In this document: positions 20,132-51,388 of the stretch, in pieces
How positions within the stretch are numbered: the stretch's first letter is position 1
How the letters are laid out: every line of letters begins with the position of its first letter
Assembly: GCA_947494335.1 (NCBI GenBank)
Contig: CANLUT010000003.1
Span: forward strand, 1 to 64,000
Source of the DNA: Oligoflexales bacterium
GTDB taxonomy: Bacteria > Bdellovibrionota_B > Oligoflexia > Oligoflexales > RGVZ01
Direction of reading: 5' to 3'
Length of the DNA stretch: 64,000 nucleotides
Notes under the pieces: model-generated
Database searches by the model: none
The model's input: the letters and a program-made list of their open reading frames with translations, nothing else
What the model was told of the DNA's origin: nothing
Program-made: the position numbers and the translations under genes

Positions 20132-20209
20132 TTTAAAGATATCAAAATAAATCAATTATTTCATTATATTAAGCTTAATCCTTAAGGTTCAAAAAAACTG
20201 ATCCGATAA
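20132..20209 (+). promoter_or_regulatory. Sigma-28-like promoter P1 with upstream element
   Basis: TAAGGTTC (20183-20190), 11 bases, then TCCGATAA (20202-20209), compared with the FliA consensus TAAAGTTT-N11-GCCGATAA. An AT-rich element containing TATCAAAATAAA has its TATC exactly 62 bases before the -10 octamer, as in P2 and P3. It is followed by the lipoprotein/FadL-like unit starting at 20247. Confidence 0.7.
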
Positions 20210-20246
20210 TATTTTGTTACAGTCGAACATCAGGAACTTTAGAGTC

Positions 20247-21092
20247 ATGAATTCGGGCCGGAATATTATTATTTTCACCATTGGTTCCGCTCTGTTGGCA
20301 GGCTGCGGCGCTCGCACTAAAACTGCGAGTCAGGTCGGCAGCATATTTTCAACCGGTTCAAATGCATTAAGCACTCGTCTTGTGGACCTTTGCCAATCAA
20401 TTCGTAGCCGTAGTGAAAAGCCGAACATGAGTGGCGCCTCGATGACAGATCAAGAGTGTGCTGATGCGGGACTGAACGCAGATAATTATCGTTCGGTCAA
20501 AGAGAAGTTTTCATTTGTTGGTCTGGATAACGAAATTTCAAAAGTAGATGGTAAAGATGTTTTGACCATCAAGACACGTGCAAAAATTTGGCTCAATTCA
20601 AATATCATCAATATGGCTGTCAAACTGACAAATGCACTACAGAAGCGTGCTGAAGGCGGCGATGATATTTTTGGCAAGCCCGATCCGGCAGGTGGCGGCG
20701 ATAAATTGGCCAATCTCCTCAAAATCAGTGTGAAGGAATTGAAGAAAATTGAGTTTAATATGGCAGAAAAGTCATTCGCAGGACGACTAAATATCTCTGG
20801 TGAAGGAATTGCAAAGCTTAACAATGATATTGATATCGATGGCAAGCTTTTCTCTGATTCAGTGGCTGTCAATGTTTCAACTCCAAGTCAAACAGCATTC
20901 AAGGATTCAATTCTTCGTGATGTCAACGCCTTGGCGATCGTTACCCCATTTGCGGGCGATATTTATGTCGATATAAGGTTTGAAGTGAATATGCACTCAG
21001 TTGGACTCGGTAGTGCGATCAAGACGAACCTTGAATCGGCTCTCGGCTCTGCCTTGAAGAAGGGTCTTGATTCCTTGTTGAAGATAGAGTGA
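20247..21092 (+). CDS. Lipoprotein of unknown function (first gene of FadL-like unit 1)
   Basis: A 281-residue predicted lipoprotein: signal IIIFTIGSALLAGC with lipobox LAGC. The mature part has no recognised domain and is mixed alpha/beta in appearance, with a predicted amphipathic C-terminal helix (SALGSALKKGLDSLL). I chose ATG 20247: the in-frame TTG at 20214 would sit at the expected transcription start of the sigma-28-like promoter and lacks a ribosome-binding site. It precedes another lipoprotein gene by 27 bases and a FadL-like gene, all probably one transcript. Confidence 0.78.
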   Translation: MNSGRNIIIFTIGSALLAGCGARTKTASQVGSIFSTGSNALSTRLVDLCQSIRSRSEKPNMSGASMTDQECADAGLNADNYRSVKEKFSFVGLDNEISKVDGKDVLTIKTRAKIWLNSNIINMAVKLTNALQKRAEGGDDIFGKPDPAGGGDKLANLLKISVKELKKIEFNMAEKSFAGRLNISGEGIAKLNNDIDIDGKLFSDSVAVNVSTPSQTAFKDSILRDVNALAIVTPFAGDIYVDIRFEVNMHSVGLGSAIKTNLESALGSALKKGLDSLLKIE

Positions 21093-21119
21093 TCGGCTTG
21101 CTGTGGGAGGATATTTGTT

Positions 21120-22073
21120 ATGCATAGTTGGGCCATAACTTCATTGATAGCTTCTACTCTGGTCGGCTGTAACGTTGATTTGACTGATGGCAAGGCATTT
21201 AGTGGTGGCGGCGCCGAAAAGAAACCGTGGGGAAAGATCGCTGCCGTATCTGGTGACGCAAACGCAAAACCAGCAGTTAAGGGACGCTTTCAACTGAGAG
21301 TTTCCTTGTTTCCTGCGGCGCTTAAAAATGCCCAGGTTTTGACTAATGCGACAACTCAGCAAATTCTTGCAAATGGCAATCTTTGTATGGGTGAAGTAAA
21401 TCTTCATATCATGCAGGACTTCAAACTCAAGTTTCCACAAAGCAAAGCAAAATGTCTTTTGATCGGAGATTTGGATTTGGAGAAATTACTTGGTGGACTG
21501 GGGGATGATAACGATAAGGGCGCAATTGAGTCCGACGGCAAAGTCCTACGACTTGAAAAGTTGGGGCCAGTCAGGTTTTCTCCAGCTAGGCCGTTGCTCA
21601 TGGGTCCGATTGCACAAGACATGTCAATTTTTCAGGGTTTTTCTGAGACTAAAGCCTATTCCGCAGTGTACAAGGATGAGGATAACGGACAAGAAAAGAC
21701 GGGCAACGGTAACATCGGTATCCGAGTTCTTGAAGCAGGATCCCAGTTTGCTCCCATTTTGATGCCAGGGACAAATTTTGACAGTATTCTATCATTTGAA
21801 CTCACAACGTCAGGTTTTGAAGGTTTGCCGCGATCCAAGGGTTTTTTATTTGATAAGGTAACATTTTGGCTGAATAGTCGTCCTATCGCCATTCCGCGTA
21901 TTATGATTCAGTCGAAGGCAAGCCATCTGTTGGATGCTGCGCCGAAACCTGATGGTTCAAGTCAATCCGGCGGTGGTGTGTTTGGAGCAACGCAGTCACC
22001 TATTGTCAAAGCGATTGCTGGCTGGTTTGATCTATATATCCACTTGGATGCTATTAGTTTTGATTCCGATTAA
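21120..22073 (+). CDS. Lipoprotein of unknown function (second gene of FadL-like unit 1)
   Basis: A 317-residue predicted lipoprotein with signal MHSWAITSLIASTLVGC (lipobox LVGC) and a Gly/Lys-rich start of the mature chain. No domain recognised; the sequence suggests a beta-rich globular protein with a low-complexity Gly/Ser stretch near the C-terminus (about 285-292). GGAGG lies 9 bases before the ATG. It sits between the first lipoprotein gene and the FadL-like barrel gene, so a surface or barrel-associated role is inferred from context only. Confidence 0.75.
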   Translation: MHSWAITSLIASTLVGCNVDLTDGKAFSGGGAEKKPWGKIAAVSGDANAKPAVKGRFQLRVSLFPAALKNAQVLTNATTQQILANGNLCMGEVNLHIMQDFKLKFPQSKAKCLLIGDLDLEKLLGGLGDDNDKGAIESDGKVLRLEKLGPVRFSPARPLLMGPIAQDMSIFQGFSETKAYSAVYKDEDNGQEKTGNGNIGIRVLEAGSQFAPILMPGTNFDSILSFELTTSGFEGLPRSKGFLFDKVTFWLNSRPIAIPRIMIQSKASHLLDAAPKPDGSSQSGGGVFGATQSPIVKAIAGWFDLYIHLDAISFDSD

Positions 22074-22088
22074 AATTTTCAGGCTTGG

Positions 22089-23426
22089 ATGATGTCGCTT
22101 AAGTATTCTTATCTTTTAGATTTTCCTCGCAGCGCATTGTTCTCGATGGGTTTGTTGTTCAGCCTGATATTTTTCAACGCAGAGTCGCGGGCGGAATCAA
22201 AAGCGGCGTCGATTACCCCTTTTCCGGATAATCCGGCAAGCGGTGCTTTTCTTCAACAAAGTTCGGCATCCCTAAAAATTACCCCAATTTCAATTGATGA
22301 CGTCAAGCTTCGTTATGTGGGGTCTGAAACAATCGCGAAGAAAAATGAAAGTCCGCTAAGCTTTGCCGATATTCGGACAGGTGTTGTTTTTAAACCTTCC
22401 AGAAGGTGGGGGCTTGGTATTGGTGAGATTTTGCCCCCTGTGTCTGTGGAGCGAAAGATAACGTCGATCCCAATTGTGGTTCTAAATCAGGTGAACTTTG
22501 TCGATTTGAAAGTAAATGCCTCTGTAAAATATGGATTCTCGTTTTTTGGCCATTATCTGTTGAATGATCGGCTTGGCCTGGGTTTGGGAATTGCTGGACG
22601 CAAAATTGACGTGAAAGCCGAGGGAACGTCCCAGGGTAGTAAGCTTTTTGACGGTTCATTTGTACTCACTGACAATAAACTTTCAGTCGGACTCAACTAC
22701 GATGCCTCTCCAAACCGGCTTCGCATCGGTTTGTCTGCGCTAGTTTATGCTTCGAACGGTATCTCCGCTAAAATCGACACGCCACTTGCATCGGGAGCAC
22801 AGGGCGGCGGTTTGAAAGGCACAGATCAAACTTCGAATAAATTTATGTCGGAATTTTTGATGGGGGTTGAGTTTCAAGTCAATCCATTGCTGACCATATA
22901 CTCCGATGGATTATGGAGACGCGCGGATCCCAGCCAAGAAGAATTCAGCATTGTTGATCTGGTTTCAAAAAAGAAGGATATCCATGACACACTTAGCTAT
23001 TTTGGAGCTCTAAGTTACATGGTTAGACCATCGCAGTTCGGCTTAGCAACCTTCACATATGAGCCATCGCCAATTGGGCCTGGAAGTAAGGGTGAGGGTG
23101 GACTTTCTGGTTTTGGAATGAAGGAAACGATTTTACTATATTCGGGGTTTGGTGATTTGCTTCCTGCATGGAGTCTTGGCGCTGGTTATCAATACGGGGA
23201 GGAACTACCTACGCAAGATGACACAGGACGTGCTGGTCGACCTGGTAAAGGCCGGAGCGATAAAGTAAAAAAATTAGAAAGGACCAGTTTGAAAGACCGG
23301 ATAACGTTTTCAATTGGTGTACGCTACCGTCGTGCATCTCTTGGAGTTGATTTGGATGGAGAGCTCCCGGGGGCTTATTCACAGACAAAACTACAGTTTC
23401 CGATTTCTCTAAAGACTATCTTTTAA
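22089..23426 (+). CDS. FadL-like (OmpP1 family) outer-membrane protein, unit 1
   Basis: A 445-residue protein with a long signal peptide (ending near ESRAES), followed by ITPFPDNPASGAF, reminiscent of the conserved NPA motif at the N-terminus of FadL-family channels. Alternating beta-strand patterns rich in Gly and aromatics follow, and the chain ends in a terminal strand closing with Phe (PISLKTIF), as in barrel proteins. FadL channels carry hydrophobic molecules across the outer membrane; the ligand here is unknown. ATG 15 bases after the upstream lipoprotein. A shared terminator follows. Related in layout to the gene at 31825. Confidence 0.7.
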   Translation: MMSLKYSYLLDFPRSALFSMGLLFSLIFFNAESRAESKAASITPFPDNPASGAFLQQSSASLKITPISIDDVKLRYVGSETIAKKNESPLSFADIRTGVVFKPSRRWGLGIGEILPPVSVERKITSIPIVVLNQVNFVDLKVNASVKYGFSFFGHYLLNDRLGLGLGIAGRKIDVKAEGTSQGSKLFDGSFVLTDNKLSVGLNYDASPNRLRIGLSALVYASNGISAKIDTPLASGAQGGGLKGTDQTSNKFMSEFLMGVEFQVNPLLTIYSDGLWRRADPSQEEFSIVDLVSKKKDIHDTLSYFGALSYMVRPSQFGLATFTYEPSPIGPGSKGEGGLSGFGMKETILLYSGFGDLLPAWSLGAGYQYGEELPTQDDTGRAGRPGKGRSDKVKKLERTSLKDRITFSIGVRYRRASLGVDLDGELPGAYSQTKLQFPISLKTIF

Positions 23427-23430
23427 AAGT

Positions 23431-23456
23431 AAAACCCCGCCAAATGGCGGGGTTTC
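23431..23456. terminator. Bidirectional terminator between convergent genes
   Basis: The 10-bp stem AAACCCCGCC/GGCGGGGTTT (23432-23441 and 23446-23455) has an AAAT loop. It carries T residues on both sides and lies between the stop codons of the FadL-like gene (+) and the papain-like protease gene (-). Confidence 0.85.
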
Positions 23457-23476
23457 GTTGAAAAGATTAAGTGAAA

Positions 23477-24292
23477 TTATTCAGCTGACGTGTAGAAGAA
23501 TAATGCTGCGTCGCCTGCTGTGGATGCGAGCTGGTTACAGCCTTGCTTTGACCATGCAAAGCCACCGTCACCCCAGTCCGTACCCCAGGAGTTTCCAATC
23601 AGGAATTCATAACCACCGTTTGGTGCTGGACGGTATCCGGCAAGGGTCACCATGTGGTTAATGCCGCGGCTACCGCAGGATGTAATGCGTGCACTCGAAT
23701 TTGGAGAAAAGCTGCTACCAGCTGCAACAGTTACGGCTATAACGCCGTAGTCAAGGATGGCTTGACGTAGCTCATCGACCCCTGGAGCGCGGTTGTTGGC
23801 TCCAATCATGGCCCAGCGTGTTGCTTTTGCAAATTTTTCACCTTTGCATGAGTAACGGGCGCTTGCACGGTAAGGACAAAGTTCTTCTGTGGTCACTCCT
23901 TTTGAAACCTCAAAACGTCCATCCATGAAACCACCGCGACAGCCGTAAGAATTTGGATCATTTACGAGAGCGTCCTGCTCAGCAAGATCCAGTGCTTCGT
24001 CGGAAGAACGGCCGGCTTTGATCAAAGCCGCTTCAAATGCTTTGGTGCGGGCAAATGACCAGCAAGATCCACAGTTACCTTGATTCTTGATGGGAGTCAC
24101 CAGACCTTGCTCGCGTGCGTCATAGCTCTCTGGCAAATCACCGCGAACAGTGATGGACTTGTACTGAGCTGGCATTCCTTTAGGTCGTGGCAATAAACCC
24201 GTGCGGTAGGTTTTGCCTTTGATGGTGACTTCATCAGACTCAGCAAAAGCGGCAGTCGATAAGAACAAAAGACTCCATAAAAGTTTACGCAT
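23477..24292 (-). CDS. Exported papain-family (C1) cysteine protease
   Basis: A 271-residue protein with signal peptide MRKLLWSLLFLSTAAFA and a complete C1 peptidase core: oxyanion Gln and catalytic Cys in NQGNCGSCWSFA, catalytic His in INHMVTLAGY and Asn in IGNSWGTDWGDGG. The N-terminal pro-segment is short, and the DAREQGLVTPIKNQG entry is typical of mature papains. It probably degrades proteins in the periplasm or outside the cell. The ATG at 24292 has GGAG 9 bases upstream. C1 proteases are less common in bacteria than in eukaryotes. Confidence 0.92.
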   Translation of the reverse strand: MRKLLWSLLFLSTAAFAESDEVTIKGKTYRTGLLPRPKGMPAQYKSITVRGDLPESYDAREQGLVTPIKNQGNCGSCWSFARTKAFEAALIKAGRSSDEALDLAEQDALVNDPNSYGCRGGFMDGRFEVSKGVTTEELCPYRASARYSCKGEKFAKATRWAMIGANNRAPGVDELRQAILDYGVIAVTVAAGSSFSPNSSARITSCGSRGINHMVTLAGYRPAPNGGYEFLIGNSWGTDWGDGGFAWSKQGCNQLASTAGDAALFFYTSAE

Positions 24293-24386
24293 ATATTCAC
24301 TCCTTCGTGTTTGGAATTGATTCCATCCCTTTATTTTAAGGCGTGGCACGCAAACCTCAAAGTAACGCAGCGGACAATTAAATGGG

Positions 24387-24429
24387 TGAAAACTCTCAGA
24401 AGCCTTGATGTGCAGGCATTCTGAGAGTT
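24387..24429 (-). terminator. Terminator-like hairpin downstream of the exported hydrolase
   Basis: The stem AACTCTCAGAA/TTCTGAGAGTT (24391-24401 and 24419-24429) continues with GCCT/AGGC. On the minus strand it is followed by TTTT, about 75 bases after the stop codon at 24502. The T tract is short. Confidence 0.5.
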
Positions 24430-24501
24430 CCTAGTGTGAGGTATTATAAATTTTTATGAGCGCTTTTTGTCAAAAAACAAATGTACTAGCGCGAGGTGTG
24501 A

Positions 24502-25260
24502 TTATGGAGTGGGGAGCGCGCAAACGTCGCTCGTAATTTGATTGGCGACCTTTCTCCACATGGTTTCATCGGTCTCCATCAAGCGGTGCGCACCCATTGG
24601 GATCCACCAGCCAGCGTCGAAGGAGCGCTCAACGTTTTCATGAGCCGCGGTAATCTTGCTCGAGTGAAGCAAAGTAAATTCAAGCTGAAACCAGTTTGTC
24701 CAACGAGCTACGCTTTTGGAGATCTGAGCGTAGTCTGGCTCAAGATCTTGAGGCGCACGCCGACAGCCTGGAGATGAGCCGGAGATGACGCCACCAATAA
24801 AAATGGCGGGTCCACAATCTCTGACACTGATGGGGTCGACAGTATGCAGTGCTCTATAGTTTAAGTTTGGAAGACGTCGCACAAGATCCATCGCAGTCCA
24901 GCCGCCATGGGACTGACCCCACAAATAAATCGGAGCGTTATCATTAGCGGCTGCAGTGTCTTCAACTAATTGCGCGAGTTGATCTCTGTTCATCGGTGCA
25001 CTTTGCAAATCAAGAGCGCCTGATGAAACGTAAATAGGATCGTTACCCAGTGCGTAGCAAGTTCTGATTTCAATGATTTCATTTTTGTAGGCTTTTTGCA
25101 CCTGATCCACGGTTTGATTCATCATGGCAGATGATTTGATCTCAGTTGTTTTTCCATCAAGAGCGCAGGATCCAAAGCCGCCCATGAAAACCATGATCGG
25201 GCTGGCCCAAGCGTTGGAGCTGATCATTAGGCATAAAACAAATGTCGTCATGCGAAACAT
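24502..25260 (-). CDS. Exported serine-hydrolase-like protein
   Basis: A 252-residue protein with signal peptide ending NAWAS. The sequence suggests an alpha/beta-hydrolase: an early strand PIMVFMGGFGSC, a nucleophile elbow LWGQSHGGW (GxSxG), then TVDPIS as a possible acid and GAHRLM as a possible His, in the canonical order. Five or more Cys could form disulfides. Substrate unknown. The ATG at 25260 follows GAGGT. It is isolated on the minus strand within the surface-protein block. Confidence 0.72.
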   Translation of the reverse strand: MFRMTTFVLCLMISSNAWASPIMVFMGGFGSCALDGKTTEIKSSAMMNQTVDQVQKAYKNEIIEIRTCYALGNDPIYVSSGALDLQSAPMNRDQLAQLVEDTAAANDNAPIYLWGQSHGGWTAMDLVRRLPNLNYRALHTVDPISVRDCGPAIFIGGVISGSSPGCRRAPQDLEPDYAQISKSVARWTNWFQLEFTLLHSSKITAAHENVERSFDAGWWIPMGAHRLMETDETMWRKVANQITSDVCALPTP

Positions 25261-25439
25261 CGTTCACCTCAACAAGACATTAATGGATAGGTCCGGGTAT
25301 AACTATTACAAATATCCATAGAATCCAATGAAAATGTCTATCCAAGATAAACATCTGAAATCACGTGGAAATAATTGATTTGAGAACTGTCGTTTCGTGC
25401 GTATGTTGTGATGTAGAGGTGATTTTTTGAGGGGTTTTT

Positions 25440-25796
25440 ATGCGGCAGTCATTAACAGATCTAAACAGGAAGACCGTTGAAACACAGCTAAAGTGCTACA
25501 ACGCCAGAGATCTGGAAGGGTTCTGCGCCTGCTATCACTCTGAGGTAATCGTAGAATGGATCGTATCGGGTCGTCAGATCAGCAAGGGTATGGATGCTTT
25601 CAAGGCTAAATATCAAAAGCTTTTTGCATCGTCGCCAGCCCTTCACTGTGAAGTAAAGCATCGATCATATGTGGGTGAGACCATTATCGACGAGGAGTTT
25701 GTTACAGGTATCAGTGGGATCGAAGATGGTCTCCACACGGTGGCGATCTACGGATTTAGGGACGGTCTGATTGATCGCGTGTGGTTCTTACGTTAG
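25440..25796 (+). CDS. SnoaL/NTF2-like protein
   Basis: A 118-residue protein with the cone-shaped NTF2-like fold signature: an N-terminal helix (VETQLKCYNARDLEGFCACY) followed by HSEVIVEWIVSG and antiparallel strands ending in DGLIDRVWFLR. Such proteins are steroid-isomerase-like enzymes or binding domains. Substrate unknown. It is followed 30 bases later by a DUF2905 gene on the same strand. Confidence 0.8.
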   Translation: MRQSLTDLNRKTVETQLKCYNARDLEGFCACYHSEVIVEWIVSGRQISKGMDAFKAKYQKLFASSPALHCEVKHRSYVGETIIDEEFVTGISGIEDGLHTVAIYGFRDGLIDRVWFLR

Positions 25797-25826
25797 CAGA
25801 GAATAGGTGAGTCGGAGGGACATTCT

Positions 25827-26048
25827 ATGAATTTCGATCCCATTGCAAAATTTTTGGTGATTGCTGGTATTGTCTCAATTGTGGCTGGACTTCTTTGGCA
25901 GTCTGGACTCATTCAAATGCTGAGTCTCGGCAAGCTTCCAGGTGATATTGTCGTAGAAAATGATCGCTACCGTTTTTACTTTCCCATCGTTACGAGCTTG
26001 GTTCTGAGTGCTCTTCTTTCCTTTATTTTGTGGTTATTTCGGCGATAA
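25827..26048 (+). CDS. DUF2905 small membrane protein
   Basis: A 73-residue protein with two hydrophobic helices (about 7-27 and 50-70) separated by LGKLPGDIVVENDRYRFYFP, the conserved centre of the DUF2905 family. An inner-membrane protein of unknown function. Confidence 0.88.
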   Translation: MNFDPIAKFLVIAGIVSIVAGLLWQSGLIQMLSLGKLPGDIVVENDRYRFYFPIVTSLVLSALLSFILWLFRR

Positions 26049-26061
26049 GTTGACTCGAAAC

Positions 26062-26097
26062 AAAAAGGCCGCGCACTATTGAAGTACGCAGCCTTTG
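26062..26097. terminator. Terminator between convergent genes
   Basis: An imperfect stem AAAGGC-x-GCG-x-ACT / AGT-x-CGC-x-GCCTTT. On the minus strand it is followed by TTTTT. It serves the minus-strand gene ending at 26118 and possibly the DUF2905 gene. Confidence 0.65.
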
Positions 26098-26117
26098 ATG
26101 TTTTGTGTCCCGAGGAA

Positions 26118-26633
26118 TTACTTCTGCTGAGCGCTGAGTGGCATTCCAAATTTAAAGCCACCAGAGAACGTCCAGTCATCAGCCGTTGTATTGGTTTGGC
26201 TCTCGTCGTGAGCGGTCATGACCTCATCCAACATCTGATCGCCGTTCAGTGACTGCTTATCGCCTTCGTAAATTTTGGAATAAACATCACCGTAGTACAC
26301 AACATAGTTGGTGCCGCGCAGGTAGGTGCCGGTCAAGACCATGGCGGTATGCTCAGGTGCTCCGGGAGGATCAAGAAACAGGACAGAGAAGATCGTGCGT
26401 CCGTGAGTTTTCTTGGTTTTGAATGCATGGCTTTCGAGGCTGTGATTTGCGCTTTTAAAAATAACTTTGCCTTGACCGCGAGCTGGTACGTCAAGAGTGA
26501 CTTCGCGTTTGACCATTTCTCCAGAAGGCATCTTATAGAATACTTTGCCTGGGACTTCGGCAGCCATGGTAGCTGAGCCAAGAAATGAGGCCGTTATAAT
26601 AAGTACAAAAAGTGAAATAAGTTGTTTTTTCAT
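26118..26633 (-). CDS. Exported protein of unknown function
   Basis: A 171-residue protein with a signal peptide (KKQLISLFVLIITASFLGSATMAA). The mature part begins EVPGKVFYKMPSGEMVKREV and looks beta-rich, with one acidic stretch; no domain is recognised. The ATG at 26633 is preferred because GGGAGA lies 7 bases upstream, whereas the ATG two codons earlier would be only 1 base from it. Confidence 0.7.
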   Translation of the reverse strand: MKKQLISLFVLIITASFLGSATMAAEVPGKVFYKMPSGEMVKREVTLDVPARGQGKVIFKSANHSLESHAFKTKKTHGRTIFSVLFLDPPGAPEHTAMVLTGTYLRGTNYVVYYGDVYSKIYEGDKQSLNGDQMLDEVMTAHDESQTNTTADDWTFSGGFKFGMPLSAQQK

Positions 26634-26777
26634 GATCATGTCTCCCTAGCGTAAGGTTATGAATAATCGCTCCGTCCAAATGATGGACGAGTGGCAGAGG
26701 ATACTCTGATTCCACATAATTAAAAACGTATAATCGTGCTTGTCTACCTTTTTAGGTCAAAAGCTGAGGTGACCTAT

Positions 26778-27638
26778 TTAAATGATACCCAAATTTGCAG
26801 CCTCGGCGGCGATGAGCTGTCCGGCTCGCCGGAAGAAGTCGCCGCGAATTCGTGTGATATGACTCATTCCGTGCGCTTCTCCCACAATTGATGTGACATC
26901 GCGCTGTGGTAAGGACTTTTGCGGGCACCCAAACTGCCCAAGAGCCAGCGTTCTTTTCGATAACAAATAAAGAGAACTCAAAATGAAATCCATGCGTGAA
27001 TACCAGATCATGGCGCGCGCTGATTCATGGCCCGTGTAAAGTTTCGAGACCATACGATACTCGCCGGCTTCGGTTAGGCTGCCCCTTTGTAAAGCTGGCT
27101 GCAGTGACCACCAGATTCCAGGGCGAATGAGCATGGATGATGATTCAAGAACTAGCCTCAGAGCCTCGGCCCAAACAAGGCTTCCCATGCTATGGGTAAT
27201 AACAATCGGTCCGGCACTTCCGTAACTGTTCCATTCAAGGATGAAAGGCTGTAGGTATTGCGCCGCCTCTTTGGCCCTTTTCTCAACGTCATTCATGTAG
27301 CGTCGGCATTTCATGAGTTCGGTTAGACCTTGAATGATCTGTTTTGATCGATTTGCAGCAAAAAAACTCGAAGATATCTCTCTAGGAACAATCAAGCTGT
27401 TCCATGTCAGTAAGTAAATGCTTCTGTTTTTTAAATTTTCGATTCCTAGATGCTGGAGCATGGGGGCCACTAGGTCCTTCATTGCTTCCTCAGGTCCGTG
27501 AAATTCCACTCCATGAATAAATAAGATTGGTGGACAATGGTCTCGTAATTGCCTGGGTTTGGAAATTTTTTCCATGCGACCGTCATTAAGGTCGAGCAAT
27601 TTCCAAATTGATGCGTCGGTGTTTAAAACCGCGTTCAT
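26778..27638 (-). CDS. Lipase-like alpha/beta-hydrolase protein
   Basis: A 286-residue protein without a signal peptide. PPILFIHGVEFHGP resembles the oxyanion-hole region of lipases, IVITHSMGSLVWAEALR the nucleophile elbow (THSMG, where G is usual at the first position), and GEAHGMSHI could hold the catalytic His. The acid residue is unclear. It could be a lipase/esterase or a PGAP1-like hydrolase. ATG with GGGAT upstream. Confidence 0.68.
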   Translation of the reverse strand: MNAVLNTDASIWKLLDLNDGRMEKISKPRQLRDHCPPILFIHGVEFHGPEEAMKDLVAPMLQHLGIENLKNRSIYLLTWNSLIVPREISSSFFAANRSKQIIQGLTELMKCRRYMNDVEKRAKEAAQYLQPFILEWNSYGSAGPIVITHSMGSLVWAEALRLVLESSSMLIRPGIWWSLQPALQRGSLTEAGEYRMVSKLYTGHESARAMIWYSRMDFILSSLYLLSKRTLALGQFGCPQKSLPQRDVTSIVGEAHGMSHITRIRGDFFRRAGQLIAAEAANLGII

Positions 27639-27779
27639 GTCCCATCCCTGATCTTTTTGTGAGGTGCTGCATCCATGATCTGGCTTTCATGAAAAGATCT
27701 GTTAAAGACCAAGAAAAAAATTCGAGAAAAGGTATCTGGGATAACTTATTAGACGAATCTAAAGAAGGCCTTATTCATT

Positions 27780-27854
27780 TTAAGTATCTAAAATAATTGG
27801 ATAAATTTGAGTAATACAAAAAATTCTAAAGTTGGCCCTATCCGAGGCCGATAC
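27780..27854 (+). promoter_or_regulatory. Sigma-28-like promoter P2 with upstream element
   Basis: TAAAGTTG (27827-27834), 12 bases, GCCGATAC (27847-27854): seven of eight matches in each box to the FliA consensus. The element TTAAGTATCTAAAATAAT (27780-27797) lies 47 bases upstream of the -35 box, exactly as in P3. It drives the secreted EF-hand protein at 27898 and probably the two lipoproteins after it. Confidence 0.78.
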
Positions 27855-27897
27855 TACCTTACATTTGGCGCAAAAATTTAATTTGGAGAGACAGCAA

Positions 27898-29181
27898 ATG
27901 ATCTTGGACAACAAATTGCGGGCAGTCTTGATCGGCAGTGTAATGACGCTCTTGACCCCTAATACTGCCTTTGCTGGTATCGAGGTTCAGCCAACTCCCA
28001 CGCCGACCCCGACGCCAACTCCAGCCCCGACCCCAACTCCAACGCCAGTGCCAACTCCAACTCCAACGCCAGTGCCAACTCCAACTCCTGAATTGACGCC
28101 AGAAGCATTTGAGATGGAGTTTGCAATTACGCCGTTCTCCAACATGGAACATGGATGGCACGTTTTTGAGCCAGGATACCGTGCTGTTTGTTCAGACGGG
28201 CAAGGGGTCGTAGCTACCGCCAAGCTTTCAATTGATGCGGCAATTAACGGTGAAACCACAGATGGTCGTGGCGCTTACCAGGGTTTAATTATTCGTCCTG
28301 TCGCTCAGTACATTCGTCGCGGCGCGACCTCAGGAAATTGTGAGCTTTCCATTTGTTTGGATCAAAACGCCGAGCGAGCTCAATCACAGGCGAGCTGCAA
28401 ACAAGTAAGCAGCGTGACAGATGGTGATGCAGAGCGCGCTTTATCATTTAAGCAAAGTGTTCCGTATCGGGTTCATGGAAACAAAATCAGCTTACAAACA
28501 GGGGCACCGGGGTTATCCGCATGGCATCCGGCTTTTGGATTTGCAGCGCCTGCCAAGTCATTTAAAGATTACCAGTCTCCACTTGTTCTCGATATGAACG
28601 GTGATGGTGTTCTATCGCTCACCGATGTTTGGAACGAAAAAAAGACCATTCAATTTGATATGGCCTTAGAAGGTCGTAACTATCCGACGGGCTGGGTAGG
28701 TCCGAAGGATGCGTTTTTGGTGATTGACCGTAATCGTAACGGAGTTATTGACAATTCATCTGAGCTTTTCGGTGAATATACCGGAGCTGATATCAACGGA
28801 CCCAAGACATTTAAGAACGGATTTTCAGCGCTGACTCTGTTCGATTCGAACGCTGACGGTCGTGTTGATGCCCGTGACAAGCAATTTGAATCCCTTGCGG
28901 TCTGGTTTGATAAAAACCAGAACGGTAAGACTGACCGCGGTGAGCTGCAGTCTCTTGCGGTGGCTGGAGTAAAAACAATCAGCCTTACTTTCGCTGATCT
29001 TCGTGATGCAAAGGGACATGTTCCATTAATTGCTGGCAACGAGGTTCGTCTTGCCGGCACATTTGAAACTAATTCCGGGAAAACACAGAAGATTGCTGAT
29101 GTTTGGTTTAAGGTGCGGCGAAATTATAACAATGCCACGGCTATGACAAAATGGCTCATGGCTCCAGCTAAGCAGAAATAA
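27898..29181 (+). CDS. Secreted protein with Pro-Thr linker and four EF-hand-like calcium loops
   Basis: A 427-residue protein: signal peptide (to about residue 26, ending TAFA), a PT-rich linker (about 30-62) built partly from 8-residue PTPTPTPV units, a central domain with Cys, and a C-terminal half with four calcium-type loops: DMNGDGVLSLTD (about 232), DRNRNGVID (about 277), DSNADGRVD (about 316) and DKNQNGKTD (about 338). It is probably a calcium-stabilised, cell-surface or extracellular protein; no catalytic domain is recognised. The ATG at 27898 follows GGAGAG (7-base spacing). Earlier in-frame TTG codons lie inside or before promoter P2. Confidence 0.83.
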   Translation: MILDNKLRAVLIGSVMTLLTPNTAFAGIEVQPTPTPTPTPTPAPTPTPTPVPTPTPTPVPTPTPELTPEAFEMEFAITPFSNMEHGWHVFEPGYRAVCSDGQGVVATAKLSIDAAINGETTDGRGAYQGLIIRPVAQYIRRGATSGNCELSICLDQNAERAQSQASCKQVSSVTDGDAERALSFKQSVPYRVHGNKISLQTGAPGLSAWHPAFGFAAPAKSFKDYQSPLVLDMNGDGVLSLTDVWNEKKTIQFDMALEGRNYPTGWVGPKDAFLVIDRNRNGVIDNSSELFGEYTGADINGPKTFKNGFSALTLFDSNADGRVDARDKQFESLAVWFDKNQNGKTDRGELQSLAVAGVKTISLTFADLRDAKGHVPLIAGNEVRLAGTFETNSGKTQKIADVWFKVRRNYNNATAMTKWLMAPAKQK

Positions 29182-29196
29182 GGGAGGAATGATTAT

Positions 29197-29907
29197 ATGA
29201 AACGCTCAATGAAGAATCTCCCGATAATTATCGTGTTAGGTGTCGCTACTTTAGGCGCCATTTCTTGTCGCAAGCAAGATGGAAAGGGTAAGGCTTCCGC
29301 TTTGCTCAGTTTGAGAACCGATCAAAAAGGAAGTGTTCCGGGTGGAAGTGATCCTCAAGCATTATGTAGCTTTCTGAAAGATAAAGGTTATTTTCCAAAA
29401 AACTCTTATCCTACGAACACCAAAGTTTTGTTTTCTACCTCTTATGAGGTGGTTGAGGATTCTGCAGGTCAGGGCTACGGTGTTGTTGGTGCCGATGGGT
29501 TTTTTGAGCAGCAAGGTAATACGACCACCCAACTCCTCGTTTGTCCAGGTGCAAGCAGCATCAGTGGCGGTAAATGTAACTGGAAAATAAATGGGGATGA
29601 TGGATACGCGCAGCTGGCGTTTGATGTTGTTTGTAACAAACGCTCGCGGCAGGGAACAAAGATTCATCCTGGCTATAGTCAACAGTCAGCATCCTTGGTG
29701 AGCTATCAAGCGAGCACCGCTGGTCAGTCGACCTCGGGGCAAGATGCAGTTGAAGTCGTGCTACAGGGGCGTGAGTCAAAAGCACGCATTGTGTTTGCCA
29801 AAGGTGTAGGTCTTGTTGCGACCGTATTTCAGGAAAGCCTAACTCCAGCAGGAACAGCCGAAGTCTTTATCGGCGGAACATCGAGTGGCAGCATGTTTGG
29901 TGATTGA
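29197..29907 (+). CDS. Lipoprotein of unknown function
   Basis: A 236-residue predicted lipoprotein (signal IIIVLGVATLGAISC, lipobox AISC). The mature start is Lys/Ser-rich, and the rest has several Cys, including CSFLKDKGYF, VCPGASSISGGKC and VVCNK, that could form disulfides. No domain recognised. GGAGG lies 9 bases upstream of the ATG. It starts 15 bases after the EF-hand protein gene and is probably cotranscribed from P2. Confidence 0.75.
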   Translation: MKRSMKNLPIIIVLGVATLGAISCRKQDGKGKASALLSLRTDQKGSVPGGSDPQALCSFLKDKGYFPKNSYPTNTKVLFSTSYEVVEDSAGQGYGVVGADGFFEQQGNTTTQLLVCPGASSISGGKCNWKINGDDGYAQLAFDVVCNKRSRQGTKIHPGYSQQSASLVSYQASTAGQSTSGQDAVEVVLQGRESKARIVFAKGVGLVATVFQESLTPAGTAEVFIGGTSSGSMFGD

Positions 29908-29962
29908 GTTGATCGTTAGACTCTATCAGGACCGATCAATCAGTTAAGGTGGCAGGGAGCTA

Positions 29963-30619
29963 ATGGTGATCAGAAAATTAAACTTCATGTGGTTAGGGCT
30001 TGCTTCACTTCTCGTGACGCTGGGATCCTGCAAGCAGTCTGGGGATTTTTCGGGTGGATCTGCCAGGCCAAATAAGCCTCTGCCTGCCGTGTCCAAGCCA
30101 CCCGTTCAAACGGCTCCTTCCGATGACTGTCAGGACAGTAAGCTCATTGCCGTTAAAAGCCTTAGTAGTTTTATTTATCAGGGCGGCACGACGAAGTCGT
30201 TTGACGTGGAGCTCACCTTTCAGCCATGTCCAACACAAATGAACAGTGTTGAGCTTCCGATCAAGTTTGATTTAGATGCGTACATCCAATTTATAAGTCA
30301 ATCTGAAAAAACAATTCCTTATGAGCTTTTGGTCAATAATGCTCAACAATCCTCGGGTCGCTTGCGGCAAACCGTTGGATCTGATCTCTTTGGTAAGTCC
30401 TGTGCGACGTGTTTTTATTTTCTAACGGACTTTCCTCTCCAGGCGGATCCAAAGCTGACGAAAGCGATCTTGCGCTTAAGCTTGTCGTCGTTCGCAGTTC
30501 GTGGGCCAGCCACGTCCCAAACTGTCGCCGCACAGAACTTTACGGTCCCTCTTCATGTTCGCGTTGGATCAGCTGCTCCTGTGACAGGCCAGCTGACATT
30601 TACACCGATAGGACTCTAA
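29963..30619 (+). CDS. Lipoprotein of unknown function
   Basis: A 218-residue predicted lipoprotein (LASLLVTLGSC, lipobox LGSC) with a Pro/Ser-rich spacer (about 30-52), then a beta-rich domain with a possible disulfide or metal pair (GKSCATCFYF). No family recognised. AGGGAG lies only 3 bases before the ATG but 6 bases before the following GTG, so translation may begin at 29966. It is the third gene of the P2 unit, 55 bases after the previous stop. Confidence 0.72.
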   Translation: MVIRKLNFMWLGLASLLVTLGSCKQSGDFSGGSARPNKPLPAVSKPPVQTAPSDDCQDSKLIAVKSLSSFIYQGGTTKSFDVELTFQPCPTQMNSVELPIKFDLDAYIQFISQSEKTIPYELLVNNAQQSSGRLRQTVGSDLFGKSCATCFYFLTDFPLQADPKLTKAILRLSLSSFAVRGPATSQTVAAQNFTVPLHVRVGSAAPVTGQLTFTPIGL

Positions 30620-30675
30620 GTAGTCATCCTAATAGGGTGGAGACTTGGTTTTTAATTAGGGCCGCTCGCATCCGC

Positions 30676-30750
30676 TTAAGTATCTAAAAATAATATAAAA
30701 AAGATCAAACTCAGAGATTAAATAAAGAAAAGTTCAAAAAAAGCCGATAA
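30676..30750 (+). promoter_or_regulatory. Sigma-28-like promoter P3 with upstream element
   Basis: TAAAGAAA (30723-30730), 12 bases, and the exact FliA -10 octamer GCCGATAA (30743-30750). The upstream element TTAAGTATCTAAAAATAAT (30676-30694) differs from the P2 copy by one inserted A and lies at the same distance (47 bases to the -35 box). The gene at 30770 follows with a very short leader. Confidence 0.8.
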
Positions 30751-30769
30751 CCCCTGTGAGGTTAAACAG

Positions 30770-31753
30770 ATGGGTCGGATCATTCAAAATTTATTAACTT
30801 GTTCAATCGCCGCGGCGCTAACTGGTGGCTGCGGTAAAACTATTTTACAAGTCATGGGTGGCGGATCGACAAATATTGTCGGACTCAATGCAGCGCCTCC
30901 AGGTGAAGGGCTTTATGACCGTTGTGGAGTTCGAATCAAAGATTTAGCAGATCCAAATGCAAAACTTGCGGATATTAAGCTTCGGGCTGATGTCCGCGTC
31001 ACCGGCACCGCCTCTGATTTGAAGTACGACCTTCTCTTGCGAGCGAATCTTCATATTTCCGCTTCTGCTGGACGGTCTGTGTCTGAGACAATTCTTGAGT
31101 TGAAGGAGAATAAATCTGAGGATGTCGATGCGTCCGGTAACGGGAGAATCACATCAGATATGGCTAAGCAGGCTGCCTATGATAACAGTACTCGTATGAC
31201 ATCGGAAAGCATGTCTACAGGGCTTTTGCTGAAACTTCAGAAAAGCGATCCACAGTTTAAAGATATTGAATGCGCTGTGACGTTCACTGGTAAGTCAACC
31301 ACTGAAACTTACAATTCAATGGGTATTGTCGAATTTACTCCTGGTATTCCAAGTGCTCTCAACCCGAGAGCATCGATGGCGACATACGATCTTGAATTGG
31401 GCGCGTCTCGTTCATTTACAGTTAAGGCGAAGGTTATCAAGGCGGCCAAAGACTGGCTTCCAGAAGGTACCGAAACTGATGTGACCATAACTTATAAGCG
31501 CGTATCTCCGGATCAAAAATCTACCCCTGGGATGCCAGCTGGTGCTCCGCAGATCAATGCTGATCTAGCCTATGAAATGACAACAACGGCAGCTGCCGGT
31601 GATGCATGGAGGCTTGGTCTATCCAAGAGACAAGTGTTTTTCGTCAATACGGCAGAGCGCGATCTCGTAGGAGCTTTGGCTGATATGGGAAGAAAAGACC
31701 CCAAGCTAAAAGCTGAGTTCCCGCCGGCTTTTGCGGTTCCAGTGACTGAATAA
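30770..31753 (+). CDS. Lipoprotein, paralogue of the one at 33230
   Basis: A 327-residue predicted lipoprotein (TCSIAAALTGGC, lipobox TGGC). Its mature part aligns along its length with the product of 33230: RCGV/NCGI near the start, DPQFKDIECAVT versus NPELKDLLCVLT, FTPGIPSALNPRAS versus FTPALVNSVSPLAS, and GLSKRQVFFVNTA versus GLPKRTVYLIDTA near the end. The two shared Cys (RCG and ECA) may pair. GAGG lies 8 bases before the ATG. It precedes the FadL-like gene by about 70 bases. Function unknown. Confidence 0.8.
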   Translation: MGRIIQNLLTCSIAAALTGGCGKTILQVMGGGSTNIVGLNAAPPGEGLYDRCGVRIKDLADPNAKLADIKLRADVRVTGTASDLKYDLLLRANLHISASAGRSVSETILELKENKSEDVDASGNGRITSDMAKQAAYDNSTRMTSESMSTGLLLKLQKSDPQFKDIECAVTFTGKSTTETYNSMGIVEFTPGIPSALNPRASMATYDLELGASRSFTVKAKVIKAAKDWLPEGTETDVTITYKRVSPDQKSTPGMPAGAPQINADLAYEMTTTAAAGDAWRLGLSKRQVFFVNTAERDLVGALADMGRKDPKLKAEFPPAFAVPVTE

Positions 31754-31824
31754 GCAGCTCTAAAAACGTCCCGTATATTTTTTTCTGCCATCTTAGGTTG
31801 TTATCGAGTTTTCAGCTTATAATT

Positions 31825-33099
31825 ATGAATGAATTAATAAGCGGAGACACCTGTTTGCCTGGATTCAATTTGAAATCGGTCGTCCTATTTCTCACCAGCA
31901 CTGCTTTTGTTGATATTTTTTTCGCACCGGCAGCTCGTGCACAGTCTTTTTTATTTCCAGGCGCTTCTGTGGGGTTTGAGTCTGGTCTCTCTCAGACCAA
32001 TACGAGAGGTCCAGTAGCGATTCCAAACAATCCTGCCAATGCTGTCATAACGAAACGATTTGAGCTGTACGCTGATATGACAATCCTTAACGTTAACTAT
32101 ACCTATACACGCGAAGGCTACGATCCCGTGAGTATCAAGTTGACCGCCCCTCCCGTCAACTTCGGTGTTAGTTTTAAGCCCAACCCTAAAATCGCACTCG
32201 GCGCTTTCGTCACACCGAGGCCGGGCGCCAAGCCTCAGGTTGTCAAAAATGTCCCGCAGGATTTGGGTGGTGAAATTACTACGGTTGATGTTTATGCAAC
32301 CCAAGGATCCTTCATCACCGGGTTCGGTCTCGGATTTAAAGTCAATAACAATACCGCTTTGGGCGTCAGCACCATAGAAACCGCGGAAGATACCCAAATT
32401 GTCGTACGTAATGCTGGGACCACAGACGACAAAAATGCGTTATTGGGTGCACGTTTTATTGGTTCGTCGTTTCAAGTAATCGCTGGGTTTCGTCATATTC
32501 CAGTACCACGACTGACCTTGGCAGGAAGTTACAAAACGGCCGTACAGAAGGAGTACAATGGTCGACTTATTCTGAAAGGTGATGAAGATGATACCGTCAA
32601 ACGAAAAGGGTTTTCTCCCGCGGTATTAGCAGTGGGAGCTGAGTACCGCCTAGGTGTCCCAACTGCGTTTGGAGAGCTTCGTCGGGAGTTTTGGTCCGCG
32701 GGGGCTTCAAGTGTTTCAACAGGAATACCTGGCGCGCCAGCTAAAACTGCGTTCGAGGATACGCTCATTGTGATCATGGGTGGACGCTTTAGAATCAATA
32801 ATGATCAGGTTGCGAGTGCATCTGTCGGATTCTATCCACCAAATGTTGGAAACGGGACACCGACCTCTAAAACGGTTAATCCCGATGCAGTGGGTGGAGT
32901 TCAATTTGGTGAGTTTGATGGTATCAGTCGAACCATGTTCTCTGGATCATATAGGGCTTCGTTGAAAAATTTGGATATAACGGGCGGCTTTAACTTTATA
33001 TCTGGTTCCAGGACCGTACCTGCCAATTATCCGGGCGCGGGACGATATGACTTAACGGTGTTCTCAGTCGGCGCCGGTGTCAGTAAGTACTTTAAGTAG
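31825..33099 (+). CDS. FadL-like (OmpP1 family) outer-membrane protein, unit 2
   Basis: About 424 residues, with an exported N-terminus (VVLFLTSTAF then FFAPAARAQS) and, near the mature start, AIPNNPANAVITKRFELY, which matches the NPA hallmark of FadL-family channels. The remainder shows repeating amphipathic strands (FGVSFKPNPKIALGAF, GFGLGFKVNNNTALG) and ends GVSKYFK. It may transport a hydrophobic compound. I annotate the ATG at 31825, but TTG 31855 has a better ribosome-binding site (GGAG, 8 bases) and gives a more normal signal peptide. It is flanked by two paralogous lipoprotein genes. Confidence 0.72.
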   Translation: MNELISGDTCLPGFNLKSVVLFLTSTAFVDIFFAPAARAQSFLFPGASVGFESGLSQTNTRGPVAIPNNPANAVITKRFELYADMTILNVNYTYTREGYDPVSIKLTAPPVNFGVSFKPNPKIALGAFVTPRPGAKPQVVKNVPQDLGGEITTVDVYATQGSFITGFGLGFKVNNNTALGVSTIETAEDTQIVVRNAGTTDDKNALLGARFIGSSFQVIAGFRHIPVPRLTLAGSYKTAVQKEYNGRLILKGDEDDTVKRKGFSPAVLAVGAEYRLGVPTAFGELRREFWSAGASSVSTGIPGAPAKTAFEDTLIVIMGGRFRINNDQVASASVGFYPPNVGNGTPTSKTVNPDAVGGVQFGEFDGISRTMFSGSYRASLKNLDITGGFNFISGSRTVPANYPGAGRYDLTVFSVGAGVSKYFK

Positions 33100-33131
33100 T
33101 GAATCCTTTAATTAATGGCCGCGGCACGCAG

Positions 33132-33206
33132 CTAAATATAACAAATCATTGCAAAAAATAGTTATTTTTCCGAATTAATCAAGTTTTGGCCGTTGATTCC
33201 CGATAC
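33132..33206 (+). promoter_or_regulatory. Sigma-28-like promoter P4 with weaker upstream element
   Basis: TCAAGTTT (33179-33186), 12 bases, CCCGATAC (33199-33206): seven and six matches of eight to the FliA consensus. A related but weaker AT-rich element (CTAAATATAACAAATCATT, 33132-33150) occupies the same position relative to the -10 box as in P1-P3. The GTG of the next gene is 24 bases downstream. Confidence 0.6.
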
Positions 33207-33229: not shown

Positions 33230-34267
33230 GTGTCAAAGCTACGTCTTATATTGATCCTGCTGATTCCAATGGCTGGAGTTGCTTCCTGCTCTGGCGATGC
33301 CATGGTCGATTTGGGTTCGTCCAGTGATGCCAAGGGCGCGAACCGTTTTAAGCCTCCTGGGGAACGTCCTGAAGCCTTCGATTTCGAAAAAAATTGCGGA
33401 ATCGCCGCAGACAAAGCCGACGATCAAAATGCAATTCTGTTTAGCGGAGACTATACGAGCTTTCCGATCATCGTCGAAGGATCAAAGTCGGTACCCATTG
33501 TAGGAACGATTCCGTATCGAGTTATATTGCAGGCTAAAATTAAGATCGCTGCAAACGCAAAAGGTTCAACGATTGATAGAACTGTTACCAAAATTTCTGC
33601 TGAGGGTACGAACCCTATTATCAGCTCAATCGTAAACAGTACTGCAGATAAGAAAGCAAAAGCAGCATCGGGTACGACCAAAGGCGTGCCTTTGCCAATT
33701 GGAGAATGGCTCAAACTAACCGGACCGTCAGGAAACCCTGAACTTAAGGACCTTCTTTGCGTATTGACCGGTGCGAAAAGCTCTACGTCTATATCTGGTG
33801 AAGGCACGCTATCGGCGACGTTTACTCCAGCGCTCGTGAATTCAGTGAGCCCGCTTGCCTCTCCAGAGCGGATGCGACAAGAGATTGGATCTGGTCGCAC
33901 TTTTAATGTCACAGCCAACGTAACATCGATTCCAAAAACTGGAGGTTTTTTAGAGCCAGTTGATAAAAACTTTAAATTAGGTTCGAAGTCTGGAAAGGTA
34001 ACCATAAAAGAGACAAAGCCAGTGCTGTCGGTTGTAAATACTGCTGCCAATATCAATCGAACCATCACATCTGATATAGCATTTGAGGTGACGAACGAGT
34101 TTCCAGACGGTGCGTACACTGTTGGCTTACCAAAACGAACCGTTTATCTAATCGATACGGCGAAAAAGACGCTAAAAGCTATTTATCTGGAGGACGATCG
34201 TCCTGATCCATCTTCACCGGATACTGGGCCGGCGACTCCTCCCATAGTGATCGTCAGAGACAAATAA
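33230..34267 (+). CDS. Lipoprotein, paralogue of the one at 30770
   Basis: A 345-residue predicted lipoprotein (LILILLIPMAGVASC, lipobox VASC), similar along its length to the 30770 product (matching segments listed there). It has a longer spacer before the first shared Cys and an acidic, Pro-rich tail (DDRPDPSSPDTGPATPP). The GTG start follows GGGGAG with 7-base spacing. A strong terminator overlaps its stop codon. With the gene at 30770 it brackets the FadL-like gene. Confidence 0.8.
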   Translation: MSKLRLILILLIPMAGVASCSGDAMVDLGSSSDAKGANRFKPPGERPEAFDFEKNCGIAADKADDQNAILFSGDYTSFPIIVEGSKSVPIVGTIPYRVILQAKIKIAANAKGSTIDRTVTKISAEGTNPIISSIVNSTADKKAKAASGTTKGVPLPIGEWLKLTGPSGNPELKDLLCVLTGAKSSTSISGEGTLSATFTPALVNSVSPLASPERMRQEIGSGRTFNVTANVTSIPKTGGFLEPVDKNFKLGSKSGKVTIKETKPVLSVVNTAANINRTITSDIAFEVTNEFPDGAYTVGLPKRTVYLIDTAKKTLKAIYLEDDRPDPSSPDTGPATPPIVIVRDK

Positions 34268-49832: not shown

Positions 49833-50795
49833 TTAAGCTGCGTTGATTACGGAAGCCACAACATCGGCTCCCGTGTGGACTCGCACCTGGTTTCTACCGT
49901 TTTGCTTGGACTGGTACAGCGCAGTATCCGCTCGCGCAATAGCATCCTTGCCGTGCTCTTGCCCTACAATCAGCTGAGCCACGCCAAGAGACATGGTCAC
50001 AGGAATGATTGTTCCTTGAAAATCAAAAACCTGAGACTCGATCGCTTGGCGAACCTTCTCTGCTGCAATACGAGCTCCCGCATGATCACTAGCTGGCAGG
50101 ATTACTAAAAATTCTTCTCCACCGTATCTGCAAACGACATCCGTCTTGCGGAAGGTCTTTTGGAAAATTCCGGCGACTGTTTTTATGACAAAATCACCAG
50201 CAGGGTGACCGTATTTATCGTTGATCTTTTTGAAGTGGTCAATATCGCCCATGATCACTGAGAGGTTGCGATGGTCATTACCAACGGGCAGGCTTATAAT
50301 GCGCTTTTCCTCCACGTTCATGTACTCTTCAAAGTGAGCGCGATTAAATAGTCCAGTCAATGGATCGGTAATCGATTTTGAAGCTTTGTCTTTATATTTG
50401 CCTTGAAGCTGCGTCTCTGCCGTTACGTCTCGAAGTAGTATGAATGCGCCAATGACCCGCCCGTCCAACAGGAAGGGAAAATATCCGATGGTAAGATTCA
50501 AGTCCGTCCCCTGATTAGTTGTACCAATCAAGTCGTCAATCCTAGTGGGGACTGTATTTTGCAAAATTTCTGCCGCCGTAATTGGCTTCTCCATAATGGA
50601 CAGCGATAAAGCGCTGTTGAAAGAATCAATTTTCAAAAGCTGCTTTGAGGTAATTCCTGTGACCAGTGCGGCAGCTGGATTTGACTTCAAGATTTTTCCC
50701 TGAGCATTCACAACGAGGTATGCGTCGAGCATGGCCTTGCAAAACTGCTCAAATGGCTTGAATGCCTCTAAGACTTGTTCATTTGTCGCCGTCAT
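49833..50795 (-). CDS. Diguanylate cyclase (PAS-GGDEF)
   Basis: A 320-residue cytosolic protein making the second messenger c-di-GMP from two GTP. N-terminal PAS-like sensor domain (about 10-125; YLVVNAQGKILKSNPAAA), then a GGDEF domain (about 155-310) with active-site GGEEF in CRYGGEEFLVI and an RxxD inhibitory site (RKTD) exactly 5 residues before it. DPLTGLFNRAHFEEYM marks the domain start. The ATG at 50795 has GGAG 5 bases upstream. The ligand of the PAS domain is unknown. It follows the STAS/zinc-ribbon gene by about 20 bases. Confidence 0.93.
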   Translation of the reverse strand: MTATNEQVLEAFKPFEQFCKAMLDAYLVVNAQGKILKSNPAAALVTGITSKQLLKIDSFNSALSLSIMEKPITAAEILQNTVPTRIDDLIGTTNQGTDLNLTIGYFPFLLDGRVIGAFILLRDVTAETQLQGKYKDKASKSITDPLTGLFNRAHFEEYMNVEEKRIISLPVGNDHRNLSVIMGDIDHFKKINDKYGHPAGDFVIKTVAGIFQKTFRKTDVVCRYGGEEFLVILPASDHAGARIAAEKVRQAIESQVFDFQGTIIPVTMSLGVAQLIVGQEHGKDAIARADTALYQSKQNGRNQVRVHTGADVVASVINAA

Positions 50796-50815
50796 CTCTG
50801 CTCCCAACATTCTTA

Positions 50816-51292
50816 TTAAGCTTCAACCCAGGCAAAAAACTCTTCCTCTAGTTCATCCATCTCCGTCGGCTTTCCACACTTTGCGCAATTAACCTGACCA
50901 CCGCCATCACTGGCAGCCGCCGGGAGATTCTGTCCTTTCACAAAAAGGTGCTGTTGCTGATTTCCACAGCTTGGACATGTGTAGCTTGCATAAACGGATT
51001 GAACCTGAGCTTTGCCGCGAAAGTTTGGAATCATGTTGATCTGGCTAACGATGTCTGGGGTGCACTCTTCAAACACAAGTGTGCGGCCTTTTTCTAGTTC
51101 GCGCATAAAGGTAATCCATGCGCGAACGCCACAGGAGTTCACTGACTCTACCTGCTTAAAGTTGATGATGACATTCTGTCCGAGAGCTTGAACGAGCTTT
51201 GGAAGATGCACTTCAGCATCCTCATTTATTGGACCAAAAAGGCTTAATTTCTCCCACTCACCGTTACGGGCAATTTGGCTTGTAATGCTCAT
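50816..51292 (-). CDS. STAS-like domain protein with C-terminal zinc ribbon
   Basis: A 158-residue protein. Residues 1-105 resemble a STAS (anti-sigma-antagonist-like) domain: VIINFKQVESVNSCGVRAWI matches the strand-loop-helix around the STAS phosphorylation site, with Ser/Cys at the key position. Residues 108-146 contain two CxxC pairs, TCPSCGN and NCAKCGK, likely binding zinc. It is transcribed with the diguanylate cyclase downstream, so it may modulate that enzyme or a partner switch; that is inference. Confidence 0.72.
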   Translation of the reverse strand: MSITSQIARNGEWEKLSLFGPINEDAEVHLPKLVQALGQNVIINFKQVESVNSCGVRAWITFMRELEKGRTLVFEECTPDIVSQINMIPNFRGKAQVQSVYASYTCPSCGNQQQHLFVKGQNLPAAASDGGGQVNCAKCGKPTEMDELEEEFFAWVEA

Positions 51293-51388
51293 GAAACTCT
51301 CCGTCTCTATCCCTGAAACCGACTGCGATGATGCCGATCGTTGTCTGCTGGGGAGTATCGGAAGAACGAACTTATCCTTAAATGCCTA

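Follow-up and report, generated by a model that had tools for sequence, protein, structure and literature searches.

The window, that is, the whole 64,000-nucleotide stretch of DNA analysed here, corresponds to positions 1-64000 of contig 3 in a genome of 3.34 Mb and 8 contigs. It contains four short gene units on the plus strand, and each of them is preceded by a sequence resembling a sigma-28 promoter (Table 1). In agreement with the initial annotation, the units encode lipoproteins, barrels and a secreted EF-hand protein. The first gene after site 2 encodes a signal-peptide protein without a lipobox, and the first genes after sites 1, 3 and 4 encode lipoproteins. For the barrel of unit 3, FadL structures were the best Foldseek matches, although the model used was of low confidence (mean pLDDT 54); a Pfam search with this protein gave no match. 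Likewise, neither the lipoproteins of the window nor the unit 1 proteins matched any Pfam or NCBIfam family, and the lipoprotein of unit 3 yielded a good model (pLDDT 81), yet a structural search with it gave no convincing match. Homologues of all three unit 1 genes occur together in loci of related families. Alignment of 26 members of the family to which the unit 3 lipoprotein and its unit 4 paralogue belong revealed that C52 and C168 are kept besides the lipobox cysteine. In one related genome (G003), both copies of the EF-hand protein homologue (L289, L295) contain one in-frame TAA.

Table 1. Sigma-28-like sites of the window, the genes behind them and further genes of the same genome (G000) mentioned in the text.
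Feature	Position	Strand	Sequence or product	Matrix score (bits)
Site 1	20182..20209	+	TTAAGGTT-N12-TCCGATAA; alternative reading TAAGGTTC-N11-TCCGATAA from 20183	18.4-19.4
Unit 1	20247..23426	+	lipoprotein 20247-21092 (lipobox LAGC); lipoprotein 21120-22073 (LVGC); barrel-like protein 22089-23426	
Site 2	27827..27854	+	TAAAGTTG-N12-GCCGATAC	21.2
Unit 2	27898..30619	+	secreted EF-hand protein 27898-29181; lipoproteins 29197-29907 and 29963-30619	
Site 3	30723..30750	+	TAAAGAAA-N12-GCCGATAA	21.6
Unit 3	30770..33099	+	lipoprotein 30770-31753; FadL-like barrel 31798-33099	
Site 4	33179..33206	+	TCAAGTTT-N12-CCCGATAC	20.7
Unit 4	33230..34267	+	one lipoprotein, paralogue of 30770-31753	
Weaker candidate fifth site	51355..51381	-	TTAAGGAT-N11-TCCGATAC	14.3
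STAS-like gene	50816-51292	-		
GGDEF-type gene	49833-50810			
flgM	G000:C4:193447-193614		FlgM	
Gene between a flagellin gene and flgF	G000:C4:199332-199862		lipoprotein (L247)	
Caspase-like gene	L117:305-1513 (-); G000:C3 about 290202-291410		Peptidase C14 lipoprotein	
PocR gene	G000:C2:259302-260909		PocR-domain sigma-54 activator (L019)	

The four sequences are present at the positions given in the initial annotation. All of them combine a -35 element like TAAAGTTT with a -10 element like GCCGATAA, separated by 11-12 nt, and lie 19-43 nt upstream of a gene on the same strand. For site 1, the original reading with N11 from 20183 fits, but that with N12 from 20182 is better, and once the site begins at 20182 all four share the core TNAAG-N16-CCGATA. 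The sites had been placed 20-45 bases before the first gene of each unit. Measured from the end of the -10 element to the likely start codon (ATG 20247, ATG 27898, ATG 30770 and GTG 33230 for sites 1 to 4), the distances are about 37, 43, 19 and 23 nt, respectively.

The core in its slightly wider form, TNAAG-N15/16-CCGATA, occurs five times in the window, namely at the four sites and at the weaker candidate fifth site, whereas 0.2 occurrences are expected in order-3 Markov sequence. Plain consensus counting over 16 bases found four loci with a score of at least 13 against about 1.4 in Markov-model sequence; this excess is modest, and the case therefore rests on position, conservation and recurrence. 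A weight matrix was derived from ten sites that precede homologous genes of other genomes, together with down-weighted sites of the related genome G016, the window being excluded. The matrix ranked the four sites first to fourth in the window, all of them 5' of same-strand genes, with the next best score at 14.3 bits, and a matrix scan of a 240-kb sample of the genome returned one site of at least 18 bits, which also precedes a gene. The earlier statement that other genes of the window lack a comparable match holds, save for the weaker minus-strand site 63 nt 5' of the STAS-like gene. Equally good matches scattered at random in coding sequence had been named as grounds for refutation; the scans did not refute the reading. 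Just 5' of the four units, a sigma-70-like consensus was sought on the plus strand and gave no match. The STAS-like gene is followed by the GGDEF-type gene.

In sister species, the orthologous genes are preceded by conserved counterparts of sites 2, 3 and 4. Equivalents of site 3 were found in G002 (TAAAGATT-N12-GCCGATAA), G001 (TTAAGTTT-N12-GCCGATAA) and G004 (TCAGGTTA-N12-ACCGATAA), and the orthologue of site 4 in G002 reads TAAAGTTA-N12-CCCGATAC. In pairwise alignments of sites 3 and 4 with G002, the flanks have largely diverged and both promoter elements stand out. For site 2, the equivalents are TTAAGTTT-N12-GCCGATAG in G005, TTAAGTTC-N12-GCCGATAC in G001, TAAGGTTT-N12-CCCGATAG in G004 and a weaker one in G035, and the multiple alignment of this site is of poor quality. 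Related lipoprotein genes of G003 and G001 also have sites. The region of sites 3 and 4 is held by the sister sequence CAMDGW010000039.1, which its depositor labelled a metagenome-derived genome of Pseudobacteriovorax antillogorgiicola. Site 1 has the lowest score of the four, no orthologue of its gene was found in the genus, and distant homologues in other families are mostly without a site. It may hence be asked whether sites 2, 3 and 4 are sigma-28 promoters while site 1 arose by chance or belongs to the set only weakly; such a view varies the reading preferred below and is compatible with it. This is rather unlikely, as site 1 shares its core and spacing with the other three and stands 37 nt from the lipoprotein gene behind it, its score is far above the background of the window, and TCAAGTTT-N12-GCCGATCC lies upstream at the homologous loci in G023 and G027.

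Beyond the window, the exact motif TAAAG-N15-GCCGATA occurs five times in the genome and not once in the reversed control, and all five matches lie shortly 5' of genes. Two of them are sites 2 and 3, and the remaining three stand before the genes for an M28-peptidase lipoprotein, a second lipoprotein and a sigma-54 activator with a PocR domain. When one mismatch was allowed, no enrichment was detected genome-wide (23 matches against 25 in the reversed control), and these matches are set apart from the control by position only; five more of them precede lipoproteins. Of these five, one lies ahead of the caspase-like lipoprotein gene, and another, a good site, belongs to a lipoprotein gene situated between a flagellin gene and flgF (Table 1). 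Counted by eye, about 17 promoter-like sites are present in this genome, of which about 10 precede lipoproteins and 14 precede exported proteins.

The motif also recurs in relatives. Each of the six genomes of genus g9 (family f8) has 20-42 copies of the exact N12 form, compared with 0-4 in the control; spacers of N11 occur there as well, but almost none of other lengths. In one of these genomes, G016, and under a strict lipobox rule, a lipobox was found in 32 of the 48 genes of at least 100 aa behind the motif, compared with 22 of 130 genes in 160 kb of background (odds ratio 9.8, p = 6e-10). With the rule tightened further, the counts were 12/48 and 7/130 (p = 5e-4). A looser rule was discarded, having flagged too many cytoplasmic proteins (21% of the background). 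The G016 loci examined contain 56 distinct exact sites, none of them before a recognisable flagellin gene. Hence, both in G016 and in the genome studied here, many FliA-type sites stand ahead of non-flagellar genes. Single matches listed from other families of the order mostly precede lipoproteins, whereas those from outside the order do not, as judged by eye. Besides lipoproteins, a sigma-54 activator with a PocR domain has the site before its gene in three families (L019; L100 in G035; L106 in G014), and a relay from sigma-28 to sigma-54 is possible at these loci. In two families, a short conserved cytoplasmic protein (SRKxHNxxLIRRMxxGE) is encoded behind the motif (L182, L227, L240).

FliA is the textbook flagellar sigma factor. 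Absence of fliA from the genome had been named as a refuting outcome, but one fliA is present and shares a flagellar operon with flhA-flhF-flhG and cheY-like genes. Its product scores 273 bits against TIGR02479 (cut-off 189.6) and is the sole FliA/WhiG-type sigma factor above the cut-off. Region 2.4/3.0 (RIRGAxLDELRSxDWVPRSVR) and region 4.2 (LNLKEIGxxLEVxESRVSQLHxQAI) are nearly the same as in E. coli FliA of structure 6pmi. The other strong matches to sigma-70 region 4 are an RpoD-like 805-aa frame and RpoH, and two weak matches look like response regulators. FlgM is encoded within a flagellar cluster (PF04316, 66.5 bits). The flagellin genes have only weaker sites, with N11 and a poor -10 element (e.g., TAAAGTTT-N11-CTCGATCA), and several are without a good site. 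Sigma-54 motifs were sought ahead of the flagellin genes and none was found. Promoters of orthologous flagellin genes (L006, L202, L206, L208) share a TAAAGTTT-like -35 element, N11 and a degenerate -10 element about 80 nt before the start.

Doubt over FliA as the reader of the four sites arises mainly because the flagellin genes carry these weaker N11-type sites. The best sites of the order precede lipoprotein rather than flagellin genes, and the flagellin sites deviate in both spacing and -10 element. The sites could accordingly be real, conserved promoters recognised by something else, either an overlooked sigma factor or an activator whose binding site resembles the sigma-28 consensus. We regard this as improbable. 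Both elements fit the FliA consensus, FliA of Bdellovibrio uses the same core and spacing, the conserved flagellin promoter retains the -35 octamer TAAAGTTT, and a single FliA/WhiG-type sigma factor exceeded the family cut-off in a survey based on TIGR02479 and sigma-70 region 4. That all four sites are chance matches and the units use ordinary sigma-70 promoters is scarcely credible: plain consensus counting does yield about 1.4 such scores per 64 kb, but the sites precede all four units, are conserved in relatives and are in excess in G016 and its kin, and the plus strand just 5' of the units has no sigma-70-like match.

The best explanation, to which we assign a probability of roughly 0.8 on the sequence evidence, is that RNA polymerase with FliA as its sigma factor recognises the four sites as promoters, and that they belong to a genome-wide sigma-28 regulon. 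They would drive the short plus-strand units for outer-membrane lipoproteins, FadL-like barrels and the secreted EF-hand protein, as part of a set whose predicted targets are mostly exported proteins, chiefly lipoproteins. The initial proposal of a sigma-28-type regulon outside the flagellar loci is well supported at the sequence level by the presence of fliA, the conserved sites and the recurrence of the motif before lipoprotein genes. Since FlgM is encoded in the genome, the flagellar checkpoint would be the natural control: FlgM may restrain FliA until hook completion, after which FliA would activate the late flagellar genes and the surface set jointly. We infer FliA binding, the start sites, control by FlgM and the link with a swimming phase. 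Both the reading of the sites by FliA itself and the suggested coupling by which surface composition would follow motility or a free-swimming phase are presumed from the example of Bdellovibrio (PMC3627812, PMC5430801) and the presence of FlgM. The swimming sigma factor thus probably also sets cell-surface proteins, much as in predatory Bdellovibrio, and a lipoprotein-rich sigma-28 regulon is most likely found across the order. More tentatively, FliA might act as an order-wide switch of the outer-surface lipoproteome, by which a finished flagellum leads to a change of coat and in which the flagellin promoters are now weak members; if true, dozens of lipoprotein genes per genome would be under FliA and the FlgM checkpoint.

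In E. coli, the sigma-28 consensus consists of TAAAGTTT and GCCGATAA (PMC2859248). The consensus elements, the nearly identical DNA-reading segments of FliA and the presence of FlgM are features in common with the present system. However, the spacer is N11 in E. coli and mainly N12 here, N11 being also used, and E. coli sigma-28 targets flagellar and chemotaxis genes instead of mostly exported proteins. Closer is Bdellovibrio bacteriovorus, in which TTAAG-N16-CCGATA was reported at 92 of 140 attack-phase promoters and FliA was proposed as the global regulator of that phase, its targets including cell-surface anchors and proteases (PMC3627812). In addition, a non-flagellar pilus operon was switched on by Bdellovibrio FliA when tested in E. 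coli, and deletion of fliA in Bdellovibrio was not achievable (PMC5430801). The two systems have the same core and spacing, FliA-type sites outside the flagellum and surface proteins among the targets. Nevertheless, they belong to different lineages, and the present one has its best sites mostly at lipoprotein genes and hardly any at flagellar genes. In the literature available, a search for a lipoprotein regulon under sigma-28 gave no match. What is new relative to the Bdellovibrio precedent is that the motif recurs throughout the order and that lipoprotein genes predominate behind it. The anonymous lipoproteins predicted to be co-regulated, among them some that contain caspase-like or peptidase domains, form a list of candidates for contact with prey, host or surface. 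If surface lipoproteins do make up most of the regulon, what is known from Bdellovibrio would extend to another order, and the purpose of the expanded regulon would become apparent.
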